Below are positions 3,919-47,245 of a DNA stretch of 47,536 nucleotides, in pieces. Made by a program: the position numbers and the translations under genes. The stretch lies in the IMG/VR virus record IMGVR_UViG_3300036900_000144, positions 1 to 47,536 of that record, one strand, 5' to 3'. A model generated the notes under the pieces. It did no database searches and was not told where the DNA came from. It saw nothing but the letters and a program-made list of their open reading frames with translations. Origin of the DNA: a virus. Within the stretch, counting starts at the first letter, position 1. Each line of letters starts with the position of its first letter.

Positions 3919-4853
3919 CTATTGTGGGGTTGATGCCTTGTCGCAATGAAGACTGGGTAATTGGGTTGACTGCCAGAGCCGCGCTGCTCTGGCTGGACAA
4001 GTTAGTAATTCTGAATCACGCGAGCACCGACGGCACCGCCATGTTGATCGGCGAACTAATGCAGGAATATCCGGGGCGCATCGCGGAGCTATTCAGCCAC
4101 GATCGCACCTGGGACGAAATGACGCACCGCACCTGGATGCTGACCGAGGCGCGGCAGCTCGGGGCCACGCATGTGGCGATTCTGGACGCCGATGAACTGC
4201 TGACCGGCAACTTGCCCGATTGGTTTAACGCGTACGCGCAATACTGCGGACGCTTCGGCATCCGCGAGCATCCTGACATGCCGCCTCACTCTATGCTCGA
4301 ATTACCGCAGATCTGCCTCCGCGGCGACATCGACCGGATGCACGCGAACGGCGTATGGGCCGAGCAGCACACGCCCGTAGTCTTCGCCGACGATCCGCTG
4401 CTGAAGTGGGCCAACGCGCCGGACGGCTACGCGCATCACCACCGCACGCCGAGCGGACGGCCGCTGCAGCCGTTCCGGCCGGTGCGCCGCAGCGAGGGCG
4501 GGCTGATGCACCTGCAATTCCTCGATGACCGGCGATTGCGGGCGAAGCAAGCACTCTACAAGCTCCAGGAGGTGCTGCGATGGCCGGGGCGGAACACGGC
4601 TGCCGAAATCAACCGCCAGTACGGGTATGCGGTCTACGGCTACGATGTCAGCAAGATACTCGGCGCGGCGGCGCTGGCAGCGCAGCACAGGTACGCCGAG
4701 GTGCCCGCTGCATGGTGGGAGCCGTACCGCGCCCTGCTGCGGCACTTACACCCGGAGGCCGAACCGTGGCAGTTGGCCGAATGCCGGAAGCTATGGGCCG
4801 AGCACGGGGCGGGGAAGTTTGCGGGCCTGGATTTATTTGGAGTCGTGGGATGA
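3915..4853 (+). CDS. Glycosyltransferase family 2-like protein
   Basis: The protein has 312 residues from GTG 3915 (GTGA overlap). The N-terminus IVGLMPCRNEDWVIG is the classical start of family 2 enzymes, followed by a DKLVILNHASTDGT strand and the metal-binding DAD motif at residues 91-93 (VAILDADEL). Histidine-rich YAHHHRTP near residue 180 and MHLQF further on are typical of the PF13704-like subgroup. The C-terminal 90 residues are helical and unassigned. It is the third glycosyltransferase-like gene of the cargo operon and likely glycosylates surface polysaccharide or a phage component. Confidence 0.8.
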   Translation: MTIVGLMPCRNEDWVIGLTARAALLWLDKLVILNHASTDGTAMLIGELMQEYPGRIAELFSHDRTWDEMTHRTWMLTEARQLGATHVAILDADELLTGNLPDWFNAYAQYCGRFGIREHPDMPPHSMLELPQICLRGDIDRMHANGVWAEQHTPVVFADDPLLKWANAPDGYAHHHRTPSGRPLQPFRPVRRSEGGLMHLQFLDDRRLRAKQALYKLQEVLRWPGRNTAAEINRQYGYAVYGYDVSKILGAAALAAQHRYAEVPAAWWEPYRALLRHLHPEAEPWQLAECRKLWAEHGAGKFAGLDLFGVVG

Positions 4854-4877
4854 AAAATAACATTACAATTGATTTGC

Positions 4878-5087
4878 ATGATTTATAAACTCGTGCGCGG
4901 CCCGAACCTTCGCACCCTGGAGTACAACGTACAGGAAACCTGCGGCCAGGGGTGGCAGCCGACCGGCGGGCCCACTTATTCCGCTGCCTCGAACGAATGG
5001 ACGCAGGCGGTATGGCGGGCGGGCGCGCCGCCGGAGCCGGATAAACTCAAACTCAAGGAGAAGCATGAGCCTGACAGACGAAGATAA
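4878..5087 (+). CDS. DUF1737-type small protein
   Basis: The protein has 69 residues. The start MIYKLVRGPNLRTLEYNV and the following GWQPTGGPTY segment match the DUF1737 pattern, a short fold that aligns a YKLV strand with a GWQP-GGP turn. The TACAAT at 4864-4869 is 8 bases before ATG 4878, so translation could be leaderless; no good ribosome-binding site is seen. The gene overlaps the following coiled-coil gene by 23 bases. Function is unknown. Confidence 0.65.
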   Translation: MIYKLVRGPNLRTLEYNVQETCGQGWQPTGGPTYSAASNEWTQAVWRAGAPPEPDKLKLKEKHEPDRRR

Positions 5088-33719: not shown

Positions 33720-34079
33720 ATGAAGGCTATCATCATCGAGATTCGAGACGCTGGGACATTCATTCCCGCGCTCGCTGTGCAGTTGGGATCGAGCGAGGAG
33801 CAGGAGCGCTGGCTACTCGCCATGGCCGGGTATGGCCGCACTTACGAGGACCAGAGCGAATACGTGGTGCTCTGTAAGATCAACGGCGGATCGCCCTGCA
33901 AGTGTGCCATTGATCCGGTTGAGTGGGGCCAGAACCCACGCACGTACTACGTCGCGCATAGATACGTGCAAAAGCACTTCAGCGAATTGGAGGCCGGCGC
34001 GGTTGTCGATGTCCAGTTTATCCTAGGAGAGACGGCGACACCCAAGACGACGGATCGCCACAATGAGGTGACAGCATGA
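33720..34079 (+). CDS. Conserved phage protein, unknown
   Basis: The protein has 119 residues, with AAGGAAG about 10 bases before ATG 33720. MKAIIIEIRDAGTFIPALAV-QLGSSEEQERWLL and YYVAHRYVQKHFSELEAGAV-VDVQFILGE match a family found upstream of recT-like genes in diverse phages, with no known function. It is the first gene of the recombination operon and overlaps recT by 4 bases. Confidence 0.7.
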   Translation: MKAIIIEIRDAGTFIPALAVQLGSSEEQERWLLAMAGYGRTYEDQSEYVVLCKINGGSPCKCAIDPVEWGQNPRTYYVAHRYVQKHFSELEAGAVVDVQFILGETATPKTTDRHNEVTA

Positions 34080-34978
34080 GCACGGACATCGTTCGCATCG
34101 ATACGGTTGGCCTGATTCCCCGCTCCGAGGCCATCACCAACGTGCAACAACTGGGTGAGCTTCTGGCGAAGTCGGGATACTTCTCCGATGCCCGGGAGTA
34201 TGGCCAGGCCGCCGTCAAGGTGATGGCTGGCGCCGAGCTCGGCATCCCGCCGATCGCCTCAATGATGGGAATTTCCATAATCAAAGGGAAAGTGGCCATG
34301 GGCGCTAATCTGATGGCTTCGCGGGTGCGCGCGCACGGCTACGATTTCAAGGTCGTGCGCCTGGAATCGGACGGTTGCACGCTCGATTTCCTCAGCAAGC
34401 CGGATGCTACCGGGAAGCGCTCGAAGCTGGGCACGTCGTCCTTCACCGAGGCCGATGCCAAGCAGGCGGGCGTGTACTCGGATATGTACAAGAAGTTCCC
34501 GCGCAATATGTTGTTTGCCCGCGCGGTAAGCAACGGTACTAAGTGGTTTACTCCCGAGGTTACCAGCGGAATGCCGGTGTATCTGCCCGAGGAGCTCGGC
34601 GCCACGGTGGACGAGGACGGCGAAGTTATCGCCATGCCGCAGGCGCAAAACGACGTGGCGCAGCGGCGCATCAAAGAGGAGCAGGCGAAGCTGGATAAGC
34701 AGCGCGAGGAGGCCAGCCCGATCAACGGCGGGCCACTCGACATCGGAAAGATGGTGAAGGGCTTCGAGGCACTGAAAGAACGGCTCGGCCCGCATACCTC
34801 GCTTTACTATGATTTGCTGCGTAACTTCGGCGTAAAACACAGCAACGAGTTTCGCGATAAGGACCGCGCGAAAGCCTGCTACCGCGAGATGGAAGCGCTG
34901 GTGAAGAAGTATGAGGCGCAGCGCGAAACGGACATGGCCGGCGAGGGCCAGCCGGTCGATGCGGAGGTGGTCGCATGA
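34076..34978 (+). CDS. recT: RecT-type single-strand annealing protein
   Basis: The protein has 300 residues. It shows the RecT core: AAVKVMAGAELGIPPIASMM-GISIIKGKVAMGANLMASRV, then CTLDFLSK, SFTEADAKQAGVYSDMYKKF-PRNMLFARAVSNGTKWFTPEV. The C-terminal third is charged and helical. RecT proteins anneal complementary strands during recombination-dependent replication. A RecE-like exonuclease was not found, but a VRR-NUC nuclease lies 3 kb downstream and a Gp157-like protein follows immediately. Confidence 0.8.
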   Translation: MSTDIVRIDTVGLIPRSEAITNVQQLGELLAKSGYFSDAREYGQAAVKVMAGAELGIPPIASMMGISIIKGKVAMGANLMASRVRAHGYDFKVVRLESDGCTLDFLSKPDATGKRSKLGTSSFTEADAKQAGVYSDMYKKFPRNMLFARAVSNGTKWFTPEVTSGMPVYLPEELGATVDEDGEVIAMPQAQNDVAQRRIKEEQAKLDKQREEASPINGGPLDIGKMVKGFEALKERLGPHTSLYYDLLRNFGVKHSNEFRDKDRAKACYREMEALVKKYEAQRETDMAGEGQPVDAEVVA

Positions 34979-35658
34979 GCGCGGCACCCAATACCTCGCT
35001 GTCGCTCTGGCACATCGAAGACGCCATCACCCAACTGATGGACATGCGCGAGGAGGCCACCGAGCCGGAAGACATCGCGGTCATCGAAGGCGAGCTGGTC
35101 AAATACGCGCAGCAGGAGGTGCGCAAGGTAGACAACATCCTGGGGTACTTGAAACACTGCGCCATGATGGAAGCCGCCGCGAAGGAGGAAGCCGCGGCGC
35201 AGGCCGAGCGCGCCCGGCTCTGGAAGGAGCGCAGCGCCCGGCTGAAGCGGGCCTGCCAGTCGGTGATGGAGACGTTCACCGGCGGCGATCGCAAGAAGAT
35301 CGAGGGCCGCACCGGAGCGCTGCTGCTCAAGGGCAACGGCGGCCGCCAGGCGGTTACCATCAGCGATCCGCTGCTCGTGCCCGAGGAGTATTGCGATTAC
35401 GTGGGGAGTATTCCGGGCGAAATCTGGCGCGAGATGCTGAGCCGGTTCGAGCCGCTGGCCGGAGTGCCATTGATCCGCACGCCGCGGGCGGCGCGAATCT
35501 ATGAGGCGCTGCAGGCGAAGTGCGAAGCGTGCGGCGGCGACGGGCTGCAGCCGTTCTCATCCGATGGCGAGAAGTGCTCAAGCTGCGGCGGTTCCGGCCA
35601 GGCGGGCGTGCCCGGCGCGCAGTTGGAACCGCGCGGCGCACACATAGAAATAAAGTGA
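34975..35658 (+). CDS. Gp157-like protein with DnaJ-type zinc tail
   Basis: The protein has 227 residues. Residues 1-110 resemble siphovirus Gp157 proteins (LWHIEDAITQLMDMREEATE-PEDIAVIEGELVKYAQQEVRKVDNI, then WKERSARLKRACQSVMETFT). The C-terminal end has CEACGGDGLQPF and CSSCGGSGQAG, two CxxCGxG units as in the DnaJ zinc domain, rare in this family. Gp157 proteins are linked to phage recombination. The zinc addition might bind RecT or DNA. Confidence 0.65.
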   Translation: MSAAPNTSLSLWHIEDAITQLMDMREEATEPEDIAVIEGELVKYAQQEVRKVDNILGYLKHCAMMEAAAKEEAAAQAERARLWKERSARLKRACQSVMETFTGGDRKKIEGRTGALLLKGNGGRQAVTISDPLLVPEEYCDYVGSIPGEIWREMLSRFEPLAGVPLIRTPRAARIYEALQAKCEACGGDGLQPFSSDGEKCSSCGGSGQAGVPGAQLEPRGAHIEIK

Positions 35659-37453: not shown

Positions 37454-37771
37454 ATGCGGCAGACCGGACAACGCGGGCGCACCGACGGCAACCACGCCGA
37501 GATCGTGAAAGCCCTGGAAGGCATCGGGGCTTCCGTGCGATCGCTGGCGGCGGTCGGCGACGGAGTGCCGGATCTGGCGGTAGGTTTTCGTGGCGTCAAT
37601 CTATTTCTGGAATGCAAGGACGGTAGCCTGTCACCCTCCAGACGCACGCTCACCGCTGCGCAGGAGCGGTTCTTCGATACCTGGGCCGGCCAGGCATGTG
37701 TCGCGTACAGCCCGGCGATGGCCGTTGAGCAGGTAATGCAGGCCGCGCGCAAGCTGGGCGCACTCGACTGA
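37454..37771 (+). CDS. VRR-NUC type nuclease
   Basis: The protein has 105 residues. The conserved catalytic order GDGVPDLAVGFRGVNLFLEC-KDG (D-x-E-x-K) is that of the VRR-NUC/PD-(D/E)XK fold, followed by LTAAQERFFDTWAGQACVAY. Such small phage nucleases cleave branched DNA (Holliday-junction-like). It fits the RecT/Gp157 recombination operon. Confidence 0.75.
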   Translation: MRQTGQRGRTDGNHAEIVKALEGIGASVRSLAAVGDGVPDLAVGFRGVNLFLECKDGSLSPSRRTLTAAQERFFDTWAGQACVAYSPAMAVEQVMQAARKLGALD

Positions 37772-37963
37772 ATGCCGCAGCTTTCCACCTTCGAGCAAGC
37801 CCAGAACTATGCGGCACTCACCCGCTGGCGCCGCGAGTTCACGGTAGCCGAAAGCGAGAATGCCGGCCGGTGGGAGCGCGCGGCGGTCCAGCGCGCGGAA
37901 ACGGCTGCATTAGCCGATGCGCTGGCGCGGATAGCGGCGGATGAAGAGGCTACGCTTCCCTGA
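37772..37963 (+). CDS. Small helical protein, unknown
   Basis: The protein has 63 residues, with ATG directly after the nuclease stop. Single helical charged chain (EQAQNYAALTRWRREFTVAE, then SENAGRWERAAVQRAETAAL). No family recognised. Confidence 0.5.
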   Translation: MPQLSTFEQAQNYAALTRWRREFTVAESENAGRWERAAVQRAETAALADALARIAADEEATLP

Positions 37964-37964
37964 C

Positions 37965-37993
37965 TTGCTGGCAAATGGCGTTTGCTGGCAAAT
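37965..37993. repeat. Twin 12-bp repeats TTGCTGGCAAAT upstream of ATPase promoter
   Basis: TTGCTGGCAAAT occurs at 37965-37976 and 37982-37993, 17 bases apart. Each has a dyad TTGC-TG-GCAA. They lie 34-62 bases upstream of the -35 at 38027. A protein-binding operator for the replication operon is likely. Confidence 0.6.
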
Positions 37994-38026
37994 CCGTTAC
38001 CCTTTTTAGATCGTGCTAAAGAAACC

Positions 38027-38055
38027 TTGATTTACGTTCAATTCGGGGTTATGCT
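38027..38055 (+). promoter_or_regulatory. Promoter TTGATT-17-TATGCT, leaderless ATPase start
   Basis: TTGATT (38027-38032), 17 bases, TATGCT (38050-38055), then six bases to ATG 38062. This supports start 38062 instead of the upstream in-frame ATG 38056. Confidence 0.6.
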
Positions 38056-38061
38056 ATGCCA

Positions 38062-38862
38062 ATGCAATCACCGTTCGGCATTTCCCCAAACCCAAACTTG
38101 CTGTACGTGACCCAAGCCATATTCGGCCACCTCGAGAAGATCCGCTTCACTATCGCGGAGCGGCAAGGCCTCGCTCTCCTCCTCGGCGATAACGGCGTGG
38201 GCAAGAGCTCGGTGCTGCGTTTCCTTCTGGCGGAGTACGACGCGGCGGGCTGCACGACCGGATTGCTGGTACAGACCGAGTATCCGTCGAAGTACGCCTT
38301 CCTGAAGGCCATCTGCGCGCAGTTCCGGCTGGAGCCCAGGCGCTCGCAGGTGGCCCAGCACGCGGCCTTCGAGGAGTGGCTGGTGGAGGAATACAAGGCC
38401 GGCCGCAACGTGGTTCTGTTCATCGATGAGGCACAACGCCTGAACGCCGAGCTCCTGGAAATCATCCGGGCGCTGCTGAACTTCGAGACCTATACCGACA
38501 AGCTACTGCAGATCGTCATGGGAGGCACGCTGGAGTTGCGCGACCGCATCCTCGCCAAGCGCAACAAAGCCCTGCGCAGCCGCATCTTTGCGCCGTGTAT
38601 GCTCAATCCCCTTTCGTCGGAGGAAACCGCCCGCATGATCGCCTTCCGCTGCCAGCGCGCCGGCATTAAGAATCCCTTCGACGCCGAGGGCTGCGCCCGG
38701 ATATTCGAGTTCAGCCGCGGCGTACCGCGCCATGCGCTCACGATCGCAGCCCATGCCTGGAATATGTCCAAGAGGCTAAAGTACACGACCGTGCCGCCGG
38801 ACCTCGTGGAAGCCGCAGCCCACGAATGCGAGGTGCCGGAGGAAGAGGCGGCGACCGCATGA
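38062..38862 (+). CDS. AAA ATPase, ExeA/TniB/MuB-like
   Basis: The protein has 266 residues from ATG 38062. Walker A GDNGVGKS at residues 42-49, Walker B LFIDEAQ at 119-125, and sensor-like TYTDKLLQIVMGG follow the ExeA-type AAA+ pattern, in which MuB, TniB and replication helicase loaders are found. A region EETARMIAFRCQRAGIKNPF, then RGVPRHALTIAAHAWN, is the usual ATPase C-domain. No transposase was seen. With its iteron-bearing neighbour and the initiator at 40124, a replication loader or partition ATPase is the better guess. A leaderless promoter and tandem repeats precede it. Confidence 0.75.
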   Translation: MQSPFGISPNPNLLYVTQAIFGHLEKIRFTIAERQGLALLLGDNGVGKSSVLRFLLAEYDAAGCTTGLLVQTEYPSKYAFLKAICAQFRLEPRRSQVAQHAAFEEWLVEEYKAGRNVVLFIDEAQRLNAELLEIIRALLNFETYTDKLLQIVMGGTLELRDRILAKRNKALRSRIFAPCMLNPLSSEETARMIAFRCQRAGIKNPFDAEGCARIFEFSRGVPRHALTIAAHAWNMSKRLKYTTVPPDLVEAAAHECEVPEEEAATA

Positions 38863-39587
38863 GCAGCAAGCCGCTATCGAAGTTCAGTTACTCGGACATG
38901 GTGAACCTGAGCGTTACGCCAGAAGCCGTACCCAAGCCAGTTAAAAACTGGGTACCCAGTCTACCCAAACTGGGTACCCAGTCTACCCAATCGCCGGGTA
39001 CCTTGGGTACCCAGTCTACCCAAGCTACCCAGTCTATTCTGGGTACCCAGGCTGGATTCGAACTTTCTGAGAATTTACCGGATTTGGAGCCTAAAAAGCC
39101 AAAATGGAAGGATAATCGGGAGCAACTGAACCTCAAGCTGCCACAACAGTTACTGGAGAATCTGAGGCGGTATGCGTTCGACAACCGACTGACCGTAACG
39201 GAGGCCGTCATGCGCGGCGTCGAAACGCTACTGGGTACCCAGTCTACCCAAGCTACCTTGGGTACCTTGGGTAGAAATCTACCCAGTCTTGATCTGATGA
39301 TTGATGATGATGATCGGACAATTTCTGAACTTTACGAAAAAGCCACCGGCAACACCTTCACCGATCGAGACCGTGAGTTCCTCGCCAAGTATCGCGAGTT
39401 CGGCGTCGATTGTCTGACGCTGGCGATCCTCACCGGCCGTAACAGGACGCGCGCCAAAATCAATTCCTTGAAATTCTTCGAGAACAACATCCGGGAAGAA
39501 GCCGCCAAGCAGCCAGATAAGATCAAGGCGGATTTACCGTTCCAGTGGGCCCGGTTCAATCGCCGGTACGGCAGGGAAGGGAAATAG
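38859..39587 (+). CDS. RHH-like DNA-binding protein whose gene carries iterons
   Basis: The protein has 242 residues from ATG 38859 (ATGA overlap). The N-terminal 30-70 region is encoded by a repeat array (LGTQSTQ and similar runs). An RHH-like core (LNLKLPQQLLENLRRYAFDN-RLTVTEAVMRGVETLL) lies at about 88-125, followed by another repeat block. The C-terminal half is alpha-helical (SELYEKATGNTFTDRDREFL, then YREFGVDCLTLAILTGRNRT). It probably binds its own gene's repeats. A replication or partition protein is likely; no exact family is known to me. Confidence 0.6.
   Translation: MSSKPLSKFSYSDMVNLSVTPEAVPKPVKNWVPSLPKLGTQSTQSPGTLGTQSTQATQSILGTQAGFELSENLPDLEPKKPKWKDNREQLNLKLPQQLLENLRRYAFDNRLTVTEAVMRGVETLLGTQSTQATLGTLGRNLPSLDLMIDDDDRTISELYEKATGNTFTDRDREFLAKYREFGVDCLTLAILTGRNRTRAKINSLKFFENNIREEAAKQPDKIKADLPFQWARFNRRYGREGK
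38948..39050. repeat. In-gene iteron array, cluster 1
   Basis: A 12-bp palindrome CTGGGTACCCAG plus TCTACCCAA forms the unit. Units lie at 38948-38969, 38970-38990 and 39003-39023 (first base changed), with extra half units and a fourth palindrome at 39039-39050. The first two units are 22 bp apart, so the second is read in a different frame, yet both are exact. Confidence 0.85.
39231..39289. repeat. In-gene iteron array, cluster 2
   Basis: One full unit (39231-39251) is followed by inverted and partial units (TTGGGTACC, TTGGGTAG, ACCCAGTCT) to 39289. It is the same sequence family as cluster 1, on the other side of the RHH-coding part. Confidence 0.75.
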
Positions 39588-39893: not shown

Positions 39894-39907
39894 TACCGTA
39901 ATCGCTA

Positions 39908-39938
39908 GTACTTTTCTCTTGACATGTGGTACTTTTCT
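39908..39938. repeat. Direct repeats GTACTTTTCT flanking the -35
   Basis: Copies at 39908-39917 and 39929-39938 are exactly 21 bp apart (two helix turns) and surround the TTGACA at 39919. An operator for a dimeric or tetrameric regulator is likely. Confidence 0.55.
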
Positions 39939-39947
39939 GCACATAAT
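39919..39947 (+). promoter_or_regulatory. Strong consensus promoter TTGACA-17-CATAAT
   Basis: TTGACA (39919-39924) is perfect, spacing 17, CATAAT (39942-39947) has one mismatch. It would start RNA near 39954 with a leader of about 170 bases before ATG 40124. It is the best promoter in the window. Confidence 0.75.
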
Positions 39948-40123: not shown

Positions 40124-41032
40124 ATGAAGCGTGGAGGACCCGATCATCCGAAAACGTTGATGCTCGCCGATATCCTGGGTGTCCCGAAATATGCGGCGGT
40201 CGGCCTGCTCGAAATGCTGTTTCACTTCACCGCGCAGTATGCACCCGAGGGCGATATCGGACGCTATTCCGATAAGCGAATTGCCACCGGGATGGCTTGG
40301 CGCGGCAAACCGGCGAAACTCCTCGCCGCACTGGCTTCATCCGGGTGGATCGACCGGATGCCAACCACTTCGCCCGAGTTCGCTACCACTTCACTCGAGT
40401 TCGCTACCACTTCGTCTGGGCAGAGGTGGGTGGTACACGGGTGGTCGGAGCACTGTGACCGGTCCGTACTCCAGCGTCTGCACCGGGAAGGCAAAAGTCC
40501 GCTCCAATCGAATCATGCAGTTGGCTGGAAAGTGTGTACAATTTCGGAAGCTGAGCTTCCCGTTTCGGAAGCCGAGCTCGCACCTGCCTTAGCCAGAGCC
40601 AGTGCCTTGCCAGTGCCAGATCCTGAGCCAAACGGCGTTGCGAGCGGCGGCGTAGGTAAGACTCGCGCGGCATCCCGCGCGCGGCATCCATCGGAAGAAC
40701 CACCGCCGCACGCCGCCGCAGTGGGTAATGGTAATACCGATAAGTGCTGTTATCCGGCATTGGATTTGTGGCCGGAAACGGACGCGAAAATCACCAATAA
40801 GTTCCCGACTACCGAACCTGCCCTGCGCCAGCAGGTGATCGAGAGCGGCATCCAGGCACACCGGGATACGGCCACCAACGGCTTGGTTCTTACCGACAAG
40901 ATCCTGGCCAAACTCATCGTCACCGCGACGAAAGACAAGCAGCACAGCGCGAAGCTCTACTTGACTACCCTTCCGATCGTAGTGGCAAACGAAGTGCGCA
41001 AGCACGAAAGGGAGAAGCATGAGCGCCTATGA
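40124..41032 (+). CDS. Replication-initiator-like protein (winged-helix type)
   Basis: The protein has 302 residues, following AGGAG at ATG 40124. The N-terminus MKRGGPDHPKTLMLADILGV-PKYAAVGLLEMLFHFTAQYA and IDRMP segment resemble the phage O/DnaD-like winged-helix proteins. It includes 7-residue repeats (TTSPEFATTSLEFATT, SEAELPVSEAELAP). A long disordered region leads to a short C-terminal domain LTDKILAKLIVTATKDKQHS. It is likely a replication protein that could bind its own repeats, as O does in lambda. Confidence 0.6.
   Translation: MKRGGPDHPKTLMLADILGVPKYAAVGLLEMLFHFTAQYAPEGDIGRYSDKRIATGMAWRGKPAKLLAALASSGWIDRMPTTSPEFATTSLEFATTSSGQRWVVHGWSEHCDRSVLQRLHREGKSPLQSNHAVGWKVCTISEAELPVSEAELAPALARASALPVPDPEPNGVASGGVGKTRAASRARHPSEEPPPHAAAVGNGNTDKCCYPALDLWPETDAKITNKFPTTEPALRQQVIESGIQAHRDTATNGLVLTDKILAKLIVTATKDKQHSAKLYLTTLPIVVANEVRKHEREKHERL
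40364..40421. repeat. 21-bp in-gene repeat in initiator-like gene
   Basis: Two full units of 21 bp (40364-40384 and 40385-40405, sharing ACCACTTC and CGAGTTCGCT) plus a partial third are in phase with the codons. Confidence 0.7.
40542..40580. repeat. Second 21-bp in-gene repeat (TTTCGGAAGC unit)
   Basis: TTTCGGAAGC-GAGCT units at 40542 and 40563 are 21 bp apart and encode SEAEL twice. The unit is itself partly palindromic (GAAGCTGAGCTTC). Confidence 0.55.
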
Positions 41033-41875: not shown

Positions 41876-43147
41876 ATGACTGGCGACCAGGCGTTACATC
41901 AAAAGCTGGTCGTCGAATATCGCCCGCTTTCCGAGATCCGCCCCTACGAGAAGAACGCCCGGAAGATCCCGCAGGCCGCCGTCGATGCGGTAGCCAAATC
42001 GCTGCGCGAGTTCGGGTGGCAGCAGCCCATCGTGGTCGATGCCGCGGGCGTGATCATCGTGGGCCATGTGCGCCGGCTGGCCGCTATCCAGGAAGGCATG
42101 ACCGAGGCGCCCGTGGTGGTGGCCGCGCACCTGACACCGGCCCAGGTGCGGCAGTATCGCCTGATGGATAATCGCTCGCACGACGAGGCGAAGTGGGATG
42201 CGGATATCCTGACCGCCGAACTGCTCGACATGCGGGCGCTCGATCTGGACCTGTCGCTTACCGGCTTCTCCTCGGGCGAGCTCGACCGGCTGTTGCTGCA
42301 GCCGAACGCGGGCGAGGACGACGTACCGCCGGTGCCGGATGCGCCGGTATCGCGGCTCGGGGATCTGTGGCTGTGCGGGGAACATCGGGTCTGCTGTGGT
42401 GACGCGACGAATGCCGAGAATACCGCGACCGTCATTCGCGACGCCACGCCGTTTCTGATGGTGACTGATCCGCCCTACGGCGTCAGCTATGATCCATCGT
42501 GGCGCGTTAAGGCAGCAGAAGAAGGCCACCTCGACTATGCGCCTACCAGAGTAGGTGAGGTATCAAACGACGACCGTACCGATTGGGCCGAGGCGTGGAA
42601 TCTATTTCCTGGAGATGTGATTTACTGTTGGAGCCCGCCGGGCTCCAACAGTATCGTAAGTGGCTCGGCATTGCTCGGCAGCGGTTTCGATATTCGCAAT
42701 ATGATTATCTGGTCGAAGCCCCATTTTCCCATCGGGCGCGGCAATTACCACTATCGGCACGAGCCCTGCTGGTATGCGGTGCGTCACGGTAAACCATCGC
42801 ACTGGTGCGGCGACCGGACGCAAACGACCGTCTGGGAAGTGGCTCTGGATAAAAACGTGGAAGGCGGCCACAGCACCCAGAAACCCGTGGAGTTAATGCG
42901 TCGGCCTATCAAGAATCACACTCTGCCGGGCGATTCCGTATACGATCCATTCCTCGGTTCCGGCACTACCCTCATCGCCGCCGAGCTCACTGGCCGCATT
43001 TGCTACGGCCTCGAGATCTCGCCCGCCTATTGCGATGTGATTGTCGCGCGTTGGGAAAAGCTCACTGGCAAGCAGGCCACGCTCGACGGCAACGGCTCCA
43101 CATTCGAGCACGTCCGCCATAGCCGCAGCATGGAAGCCGTCGCATGA
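41876..43147 (+). CDS. ParB-like domain / DNA methyltransferase (DPPY type)
   Basis: The protein has 423 residues. Residues 10-100 form a ParB/Srx-like N-terminal domain (PLSEIRPYEKNARKIPQAAV, then WQQPIVVDAAGVIIVGHVRR). The catalytic domain has DPPY at 198-201 and a SAM-binding DPFLGSGT at 357-364. The order (DPPY first, target region between, FxGxG last) is the beta class. DPPY usually gives N6-methyladenine. It is fused and adjacent to the SPPY enzyme, with which it overlaps in ATGA. No restriction enzyme lies nearby, so it is an orphan, perhaps protecting phage DNA. Confidence 0.85.
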   Translation: MTGDQALHQKLVVEYRPLSEIRPYEKNARKIPQAAVDAVAKSLREFGWQQPIVVDAAGVIIVGHVRRLAAIQEGMTEAPVVVAAHLTPAQVRQYRLMDNRSHDEAKWDADILTAELLDMRALDLDLSLTGFSSGELDRLLLQPNAGEDDVPPVPDAPVSRLGDLWLCGEHRVCCGDATNAENTATVIRDATPFLMVTDPPYGVSYDPSWRVKAAEEGHLDYAPTRVGEVSNDDRTDWAEAWNLFPGDVIYCWSPPGSNSIVSGSALLGSGFDIRNMIIWSKPHFPIGRGNYHYRHEPCWYAVRHGKPSHWCGDRTQTTVWEVALDKNVEGGHSTQKPVELMRRPIKNHTLPGDSVYDPFLGSGTTLIAAELTGRICYGLEISPAYCDVIVARWEKLTGKQATLDGNGSTFEHVRHSRSMEAVA

Positions 43148-44058
43148 CGCACCGTATCCTGTGCGGCGACTGCCGGAAGCCGGAGGACGTGCAGCGCCTG
43201 TTCGCCGGCAAGAAGGCGAACGTGGTCATGACATCGCCGCCGTATGCATCACAGCGGAAGTATGACGAGTCCAGCGGCTTTCGTCCGATCCCGCCAGACG
43301 CATACGTGGAGTGGTACCGCGCGGTGGCGGAAGGGATCGAGTCAGTCCTCGCGCCGGATGGCTCCTATTTTCTGAACATCAAGGAGCGCGCGGAGGACGG
43401 CGAACGACATCTGTACGTGAAGGACCTCACCATCGCGCACCGGCGGCAGTGGGGCTGGCGTTTCGTGGATGAGTTCTGCTGGAGGCATGAAGGGACACCG
43501 GGCCAATGGTCTAACCGGTTTAAAAACCAATGGGAACCGGTGTTCCATTTTTCCAGGAATCAAGTCAAGCTCAACCATGCAGCCGTCATGCACAAAAGTC
43601 CCAGGGCTGGTAAATCTCTGGGTCTCGATGGGACAACTTTGCAGGGAAATGTTGGCTTCAAGGGGGAAATATCGAAGGGCTATGCGATGCCAGGAAATGT
43701 GATTGAGGCATACCACAACGAAGGTCGGGACATTTCGGCCATCCACCCGGCTAAGTTCCCAGTTTCTCTCCCGGAATTCTTCATCAAGGCATTCTCGAAC
43801 CCGGGCGACATCATCTTCGACCCGTTCATGGGCAGCGGCACCACGCTCATCGCAGCAGCCAAGCTGGGCCGCATCGGTTACGGAATGGAAGTCAGCCCGG
43901 CATACTGCGATGTCATTGTGAAGCGGCTGATGCAGTTCGATAACTCGCAATGGCACCTCGAGGGCTGTGGCGCGTCCTTCGAGCACGTCAGATTCGGCCG
44001 CCGCCTCGAAGCGGAAGACGCGCTGAAGGAGGAAGCACTTGCTCAACCGGCGGAATAA
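43144..44058 (+). CDS. DNA methyltransferase (SPPY type, probable N4-cytosine)
   Basis: The protein has 304 residues. SPPY at 31-34 is the N4-cytosine-type active-site motif, and DPFMGSGT (226-233) the SAM motif; order is beta-like. The C-terminal ends of both enzymes share a GCGASFEHVRFGRR / GSTFEHVRHSR segment, so they may descend from a common ancestor. It lies directly before terminase, and DNA modification may mark genomes for packaging or against host restriction. The stop overlaps the terminase small-subunit start. Confidence 0.8.
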   Translation: MTHRILCGDCRKPEDVQRLFAGKKANVVMTSPPYASQRKYDESSGFRPIPPDAYVEWYRAVAEGIESVLAPDGSYFLNIKERAEDGERHLYVKDLTIAHRRQWGWRFVDEFCWRHEGTPGQWSNRFKNQWEPVFHFSRNQVKLNHAAVMHKSPRAGKSLGLDGTTLQGNVGFKGEISKGYAMPGNVIEAYHNEGRDISAIHPAKFPVSLPEFFIKAFSNPGDIIFDPFMGSGTTLIAAAKLGRIGYGMEVSPAYCDVIVKRLMQFDNSQWHLEGCGASFEHVRFGRRLEAEDALKEEALAQPAE

Positions 44059-44455
44059 GCGGCTCTCGATCGATATCGAGCAGGTCAAGCAGTGGGCCCG
44101 CGCCGGCGCCACGCAGCCGGAAATCGCGCAGCGCCTCAAGATCGGCCTGCGCACGTTTCAGCGCTGGCTGGAGCACTCCGAATACCGGGACGAGTACGAC
44201 GGCGCCACGGCGGAGCTCAAGATCAGCCTGCGGAGCAAGCAGGTAGCGTTAGCGATGGCTGGCAATGCCACGATGCTGATCTGGCTGGGTAAGCAACTCC
44301 TCGGGCAGCGGGATAATCTAGATCATGCGCTTACCGGAGCCGCTGGCGGTCCCATCGAGGTCGCAGATCTAAGTGGTACCGAGTTACTCACCAGCCGAAT
44401 TGCTAGCGTCGCTGCCAGACAAAGAGCGGGAACTGGCCCTACGCGGGTTAACTGA
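44039..44455 (+). CDS. Terminase small subunit
   Basis: The protein has 138 residues, starting with TTG 44039 after an AAGGAGG site. The N-terminal helix-turn-helix (VKQWARAGATQPEIAQRLKI-GLRTFQRWLEH) is typical of small terminases that recognise the packaging site. A coiled helical region follows. It overlaps the large subunit by 83 bases, a tight coupling seen in phages. Confidence 0.75.
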   Translation: MLNRRNKRLSIDIEQVKQWARAGATQPEIAQRLKIGLRTFQRWLEHSEYRDEYDGATAELKISLRSKQVALAMAGNATMLIWLGKQLLGQRDNLDHALTGAAGGPIEVADLSGTELLTSRIASVAARQRAGTGPTRVN

Positions 44456-46955: not shown

Positions 46956-47111
46956 ATGCACGAAAAAATGATTACCGCGCGCATCAACGTGCCCGATGAG
47001 CTCTGGCGCCGGGTGCGCGCGGCGGCGCTGACCGACGACCGCAAGAACGAAGACGTGCTGCGCGAAGCGCTCGAGCGCTGGCTACAATCGCGTAAAGAGG
47101 CGGGCGAATGA
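46956..47111 (+). CDS. RHH-like small protein
   Basis: The protein has 51 residues. MITARINVPDELWRRVRAAA-LTDDRKNEDVLREALERWL has a beta strand and two helices of ribbon-helix-helix proteins. The second half is the piece repeated at the window start. It may be a small regulator. Confidence 0.65.
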   Translation: MHEKMITARINVPDELWRRVRAAALTDDRKNEDVLREALERWLQSRKEAGE

Positions 47112-47245
47112 TGCAGATTGTGGCAGGTGCGGTGACGGTGTGCTGGCTGGTGGCTCTGGTGATGCTGCATCGGAGCGTGCGGTGATGTGGATTCTCGTTA
47201 GACGGCTGCTGGCCCTGCTGATCCTGCAGCGTGTGCGGGGGCGGC
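47056..47245. repeat. Right copy of imperfect terminal repeat
   Basis: Matches 1-190; see the left copy. Downstream sequence is different (YkgJ-like gene instead of glycosyltransferase). Confidence 0.9.
47108..47185 (+). CDS. 25-residue membrane peptide (second copy)
   Basis: Same peptide as 53-130, ending with TGA instead of TAA. Overlaps neighbours on both sides. Confidence 0.45.
   Translation: MMQIVAGAVTVCWLVALVMLHRSVR

Follow-up and report, generated by a model that had tools for sequence, protein, structure and literature searches.

A gene of the viral contig analysed here (hereafter the window, 47,536 bases) carries exact repeats within its coding sequence, which raises the question of whether the repeats serve the encoded protein or the DNA itself and, in the latter case, which process the DNA serves. 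The original prediction regarded the repeats as a likely origin, centromere, or operator, perhaps bound by the RHH-like product of the gene and served by the AAA ATPase encoded next door. We examined the array, its counterpart in a second phage contig (L206), and the surrounding genes.

Repeat array and AT-rich tract in the gene 38859–39587

The features of the gene pair are as follows.
38056..38862 (+): first of the two genes, encoding an AAA+ ATPase of the AAA_22, MuB/ExeA/XrtA-ATPase type with the classical Walker A GDNGVGKS
38859..39587 (+): array-bearing gene, an ORF of 242 aa with N-terminal linker, Arc-like RHH, second linker, and helical C-terminal domain
38929..39051 (+): array cluster 1, with 13 TACCCA half-sites (9 forward, 4 reversed), palindromes at 38948, 38970, 39003, and 39039, and 9-bp direct steps
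39093..39245 (+): RHH-coding segment between the two clusters (residues 79–129; phrog_876; weak Arc match in the PDB)
39230..39290 (+): array cluster 2, with 6 half-sites (3 forward, 3 reversed) and a palindrome at 39231
39270..39335 (+): AT-rich tract directly after cluster 2, a candidate unwinding element
39306..39503 (+): C-terminal domain, weakly aligned with the L206 protein

The word CTGGGTACCCAG occurs exactly four times (38948, 38970, 39039, and 39231), a further copy at 39003 differs from it by one mismatch, and TCTACCCAA is present at 38960, 38982, 39015, and 39243 with a reversed copy at 39267. All seven GGGTACC copies lie within the gene 38859–39587, and none occurs elsewhere in the 47.5 kb; a host-type dispersed repeat was ruled out by this confinement to one gene. 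These positions and counts confirm the two clusters of exact repeats that had been described in the gene. The smallest word of the array is TACCCA. Its copies in either orientation (TACCCA/TGGGTA) number 29 in the entire window, where about 10 are expected, and 19 of them fall inside 38929–39285. Each unit consists of a reversed TACCCA, a forward copy 4 bp on (together TGGGTACCCA), and then more forward copies at 9-bp steps. The clusters flank the RHH-coding segment, with cluster 1 before it and cluster 2 right after it. The exact repeat word was absent from the viral and genome collections searched. The array words coincide with restriction sites, namely KpnI (GGTACC) in the window and HpaI (GTTAAC) in L206.

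The most repetitive 400-bp stretch of the window starts at 38901 and contains 91 repeated 10-mers, where the median stretch has 0. Synonymous-codon resampling of the gene gave a mean of 0.5 and a maximum of 4 GGTACC copies among 5000 resamplings, against the 7 seen, and a maximum of 50 repeated 10-mers, against the 94 seen. These results indicate that the repetition resides in the DNA and is not merely a repetitive peptide written in normal codons. The array codons GGT and TCT are rare in the window genome. The repeats had also been claimed to be conserved across reading frames, on the grounds that adjacent units have a 22-bp period. The 22-bp step is real, and the units are read as WVPSLPK and then LGTQSTQ, but the first unit is the sole one in a deviating frame: six of the seven GGGTACC copies share one frame, and TACCCA falls into two, with 4 and 8 copies. 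As a general statement the claim is therefore weak in the window, whereas it is strong in L206, in which AACCAG is read in all three frames.

The AT-rich tract is the weakest 40–60 bp duplex in the gene, ranks in the top 0.2–0.3% of the window (z 3.0–3.3), and has the lowest GC3 per 20 codons among the 27 genes checked. In regards to L206, the tract after cluster 2 is the single weakest duplex in 51.8 kb, with z values of 5.9 and 5.3 when 40-bp and 60-bp windows were used, respectively. Both tracts were weaker than synonymous resampling gave (P < 5e-5, 0/20,000, for L206 and P 0.002 for the window). An AT-rich tract beside the repeats is thus a strong feature in L206 and a moderate one in the window.

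The isolated segment of residues 79–129 matched the Arc-like repressor families phrog_876 (E 1.2e-5), phrog_582 (E 9e-4), and phrog_2639 (E 3e-3), and its top PDB match was Arc, weakly (E 0.14); the family matches support the description of the gene as RHH-like. No known initiator family was matched in Pfam, PHROGs, or NCBIfam, in which the protein matched Arc-like RHH families only, and no close relatives of it were found in viral contigs, phages, or plasmids. The AlphaFold models were poor (pLDDT 39 and 50), so that fold searches give leads at most. One such lead is a possible DnaD/replisome-organizer-like fold of the C-terminal domain, for which the Foldseek result was not significant and the underlying model was of low confidence.

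A second array in the phage contig L206

L206 was found among the viral contigs with a 48-residue stretch of the window ATPase as the query. A search with a 48-mer from L206 gave L206 itself again and no other contig, and the array is known in just these two genomes. Short exact peptides served as queries in the viral and genome scans, which reach close relatives only. L206 is a 51.8-kb contig with overlapping ends and looks like a circular phage contig. Its ATPase is 45% identical to the window ATPase over its length, and the gene 3′ of it overlaps the ATPase stop. The window has the same arrangement, its array gene sharing the start codon region with the stop of the ATPase gene (ATGA). The ATPase next door, which had been proposed as a partner, is thus a conserved one.

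The L206 array is written in other words, CTGGTTAACCAG and TCAACCAG, and its two clusters (4550–4680 and 4822–4885) occupy the same relative places in the gene as those of the window. As in the window, one reversed copy leads into forward copies (< > > >), here with 6- and 8-bp steps, and the most repetitive 400 bp of the contig fall in the array gene. BLASTP detected no similarity between the window and L206 array proteins, either in the middle part or in the C-terminal part, and a forced alignment gave about 25% identity. No RHH profile matched the L206 array protein; its position and a short motif suggest that it is also an RHH protein. The check that had been proposed was to align homologous phages, in which the repeat bases should persist while the encoded residues vary. 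L206 provides a stronger form of this test, since the layout of the DNA was kept and the protein drifted. The retention of array geometry and position beside a protein that has diverged beyond BLASTP recognition indicates that the array is a DNA-level element.

A generic scan for three GGGTACC copies turned up numerous arrays, most of which sit in unrelated genes for replication or tail proteins. The ATPase was absent from 50 records with GGGTACC arrays and, save for one marginal 37-residue match, from 41 methyltransferase-related phage records. GGGTACC-type iterons, often at 22–24 bp steps, lie inside the linker of apparent winged-helix replication genes of otherwise unrelated phages, in the following contigs.
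L092, L099, L107, L109, L117, L126, L127, L131, L132, L137, L141, L146, L157, L159: iterons within apparent winged-helix replication genes

Two further arrays lie elsewhere. An apparent head morphogenesis gene (L094:477-1520, −) contains nine GGGTACCC palindromes spaced by 26, 27, and 33 bp, so that GGGTACCC is read in more than one frame, and nine GGGTACCC copies occur in and around a helicase-like gene (L119:2559-2881), where the peptide is KGTQGTPSTKGTKP.

The ATPase and the neighbouring genes

The gene pair 38056–38862 and 38859–39587 sits in the early region of the window. On its 3′ side lie an O-like replication gene and two DNA methyltransferase genes, followed by the small and large terminase genes. 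The neighbouring features are as follows.
34076–34978: gene for a RecT-like annealing protein, upstream of the pair
34975–35658: Sipho_Gp157/Gam-like gene, upstream of the pair
40124..41032 (+): O-like replication initiation gene, N-terminal winged-helix part (phrog_9474, E 1.7e-13; tblastn match to a Microcystis phage replication protein)
40364..40410 (+): 21-bp repeats within the O-like gene, a candidate second (lambda-O-type) iteron site
44039–44455: small terminase gene (phrog_309, E 6.5e-11)

A pac site in the small terminase gene was ruled out for the array, as the small terminase is this separate gene. A strong sigma-70-like promoter (TTGACA-17-CATAAT) precedes the O-like gene at 39903–39947; two copies of GTACTTTTCT, one 5′ of the −35 box and one between the boxes, are likely an operator. 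The two methyltransferase genes lie side by side at 41876–44058, and a ParB-like N-terminal part is fused to the first. An exact 126-bp repeat occurs at 1–126 and 47056–47181, the latter stopping 355 bp short of the contig end, and may hint at circularity or at an assembly branch.

The ATPase matched AAA_22 in Pfam (E 1.8e-19), phrog_296 'DNA transposition protein' in PHROGs (E 1.3e-21), TIGR03015 with an E value of 7e-42 that is nevertheless far below the family cut-off, and orc1/cdc6 (E 2e-5). It was assigned to AAA_22 with a classical Walker A and not to ParA (deviant Walker), ParM, or TubZ. No close relatives by protein were found in phages or genome contigs, and a profile scan built on the alignment of the two ATPases gave no relatives among the matches listed. 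Most of the plasmid relatives are ATPases of secretion, PEP-CTERM, or transposon systems. Plasmid relatives lie after IS481/DDE transposases, and no arrays were seen beside those inspected. The family likeness extends to the MuB, IstB, and TniB-type ATPases through phrog_296. The elements that carry these ATPases nevertheless differ from both phages, in which no rve transposase was found, and a Mu/Tn7-like transposition module was ruled out on this basis.

A Leptolinea plasmid (L209:2935-5045) carries an ATPase relative, then a 108-aa ORF that looks RHH-like by eye, and then a DnaA_N protein gene; the inverted repeat TTTCTACCA/TGGTAGAAA lies between the ORF and the DnaA_N gene. By analogy, this order may be a precedent for pairing the ATPase with a replication gene on a plasmid, and we counted it for an origin. 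No helicase of the DnaB_C family was found in the window or the L206 genome, which makes a loader for the host helicase plausible.

Candidate functions of the array

We tentatively favour the reading in which the gene 38859–39587 holds an origin-type cis site, composed of the half-site array and an unwinding element, at which the RHH product would bind and the ATPase would act, although we put its chance slightly short of even. Dimers of the RHH product would bind the TACCCA half-sites on both sides of the RHH-coding segment, the half-sites being arranged as back-to-back pairs (TGGGTACCCA) and then 9-bp direct steps. The complex of protein and array would melt the AT-rich tract that directly follows cluster 2; at the melted tract, the AAA+ ATPase from the overlapping upstream gene would act, most simply as the loader of the host replicative helicase. 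The array site would thereby serve one replicon of the phage, and the O-like gene 40124–41032 the other.

The evidence on an origin is divided. In both genes, cluster 2 is followed by an easily melted AT-rich tract, which tips the balance toward an origin only moderately. The predicted switch in GC skew is absent: neither genome turns at the array, and in each the minimum of the circular cumulative curve is about 5 kb distant. No DnaA box was found in or near the array. Such switches and boxes are common at in-gene phage origins but not obligatory. Also counting against an origin are the restriction of the array to two genomes so far and the lack of an RHH profile match for the L206 protein. 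Furthermore, both phages carry, besides the array gene, an O-like replication gene that has in-gene repeats too; in L206 this lambda-O-like gene lies at 37464–38369 of the contig (L215:7464-8369, −) with iterons GGTGCA...TGCACC. The array site is therefore not needed as the only origin, which leaves two readings, a second replicon or a partition site.

The favoured origin has partial parallels in known systems. The lambda origin, with its iterons and an AT tract, lies midway along gene O (PMC7466680). O is the initiator, and P is the helicase loader. The window gene resembles this origin in having short repeats inside the gene itself, here putative protein-binding sites, an AT-rich tract alongside, and an adjacent candidate loader gene. 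Lambda O has an O-type winged helix and iterons, whereas the window gene has an RHH, and the half-sites of the two phages stand at 8–9 bp steps; P lies downstream in lambda, whereas in the window the AAA+ ATPase gene lies upstream, the two clusters flank the domain, and there is an O-like gene elsewhere. The P1 oriL lies inside repL and is likewise an origin embedded in a replication gene with an integral coding AT-rich tract, in which synonymous changes inhibit RepL-mediated amplification, and the abstract mentions no comparable array (PMC9948254). P1 differs also in having no ATPase partner. Two replicons are present in P1, of which oriL is one.

The main rival is a centromere or partition site, since both phages have the separate O-like gene with its own repeats. 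The RHH protein would be the centromere-binding protein (cf. omega/ParB of pSM19035 and ParG), the ATPase an unusual motor or nucleoid tether, and the phage would persist in the form of a plasmid prophage. We consider this unlikely but well worth weighing. RHH-type partition loci have this very layout, in which an ATPase gene is followed by an RHH gene and the short half-sites form one contiguous array, and the RHH partition system of pSM19035, omega (ParB)/parS, shares with the window an RHH protein, matched by profile in the window but not in L206, contiguous short repeats, of which four or more are needed, and an ATPase partner (PMC9499535). The partner in pSM19035 is a deviant-Walker ParA, whereas that in the window is a classical-Walker AAA+ protein of the AAA_22 family and not ParA, ParM, or TubZ. 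To our knowledge, parS of pSM19035 is not located inside the RHH gene, and we know of no AT tract described there. A centromere is also consistent with the separate replication genes, with the HicB-like gene that L206 encodes, with the series of ATPase, small ORF, and replication gene on the Leptolinea plasmid, and with the failure to find a tyrosine integrase, a resolvase-family integrase, or an rve transposase in either genome. However, the model does not require the AT tract, evidence for a plasmid prophage is absent for both phages, and no HTH_3 repressor was found.

It is improbable that the array is an operator at which the RHH protein, bound inside its own gene, would repress transcription of that gene or act as a roadblock to it. 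Repression is a classic role of RHH proteins, Arc among them, and the Arc-like family matches of the segment fit this; however, nineteen sites are many for one operator, the AT tract is left unexplained, and the promoter region 5′ of the ATPase holds no half-site, which speaks against the plain operator among the functions initially proposed. We give little credence to neutral expansion by slippage, or by insertion of a mobile palindromic repeat into tolerant linkers of the gene. The clusters do fall in predicted linkers, and GGGTACC arrays occur in other phage genes unrelated to the pair (e.g., L094 and L119), but in the window the word stays within one gene, and L206 repeats the geometry and place with another word and has the AT tract as well. 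Regulation of translation or stability by paired repeats in the mRNA is scarcely credible: folding of the array region is far stronger than that of shuffled sequences (z −5.7), but such folding is unavoidable for self-complementary repeats, no Rfam match was found, and stems need equal numbers, whereas forward and reversed half-sites stand at 12 to 7 in the window and 13 to 2 in L206, which argues that RNA pairing is a by-product.

Returning to the origin-type site, we raise, as a possibility that we hold more doubtfully, that the gene pair is a phage maintenance module of an undescribed type, in which an RHH protein and a MuB/ExeA-type AAA+ ATPase act on an array and an unwinding element inside the RHH gene. 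The recognition word would have been rewritten wholesale between the phages while the geometry, the place, and the AT tract persisted, and the protein and its site would co-evolve inside one gene. Synonymous recoding can separate DNA function from protein function for the array gene. If the proposal is true, an RHH-class protein and a transposition/secretion-type AAA+ ATPase would join the small set of in-gene phage origins or centromeres, and the two phages would present a clean case of a DNA-binding protein and its binding word changing together in a single gene.
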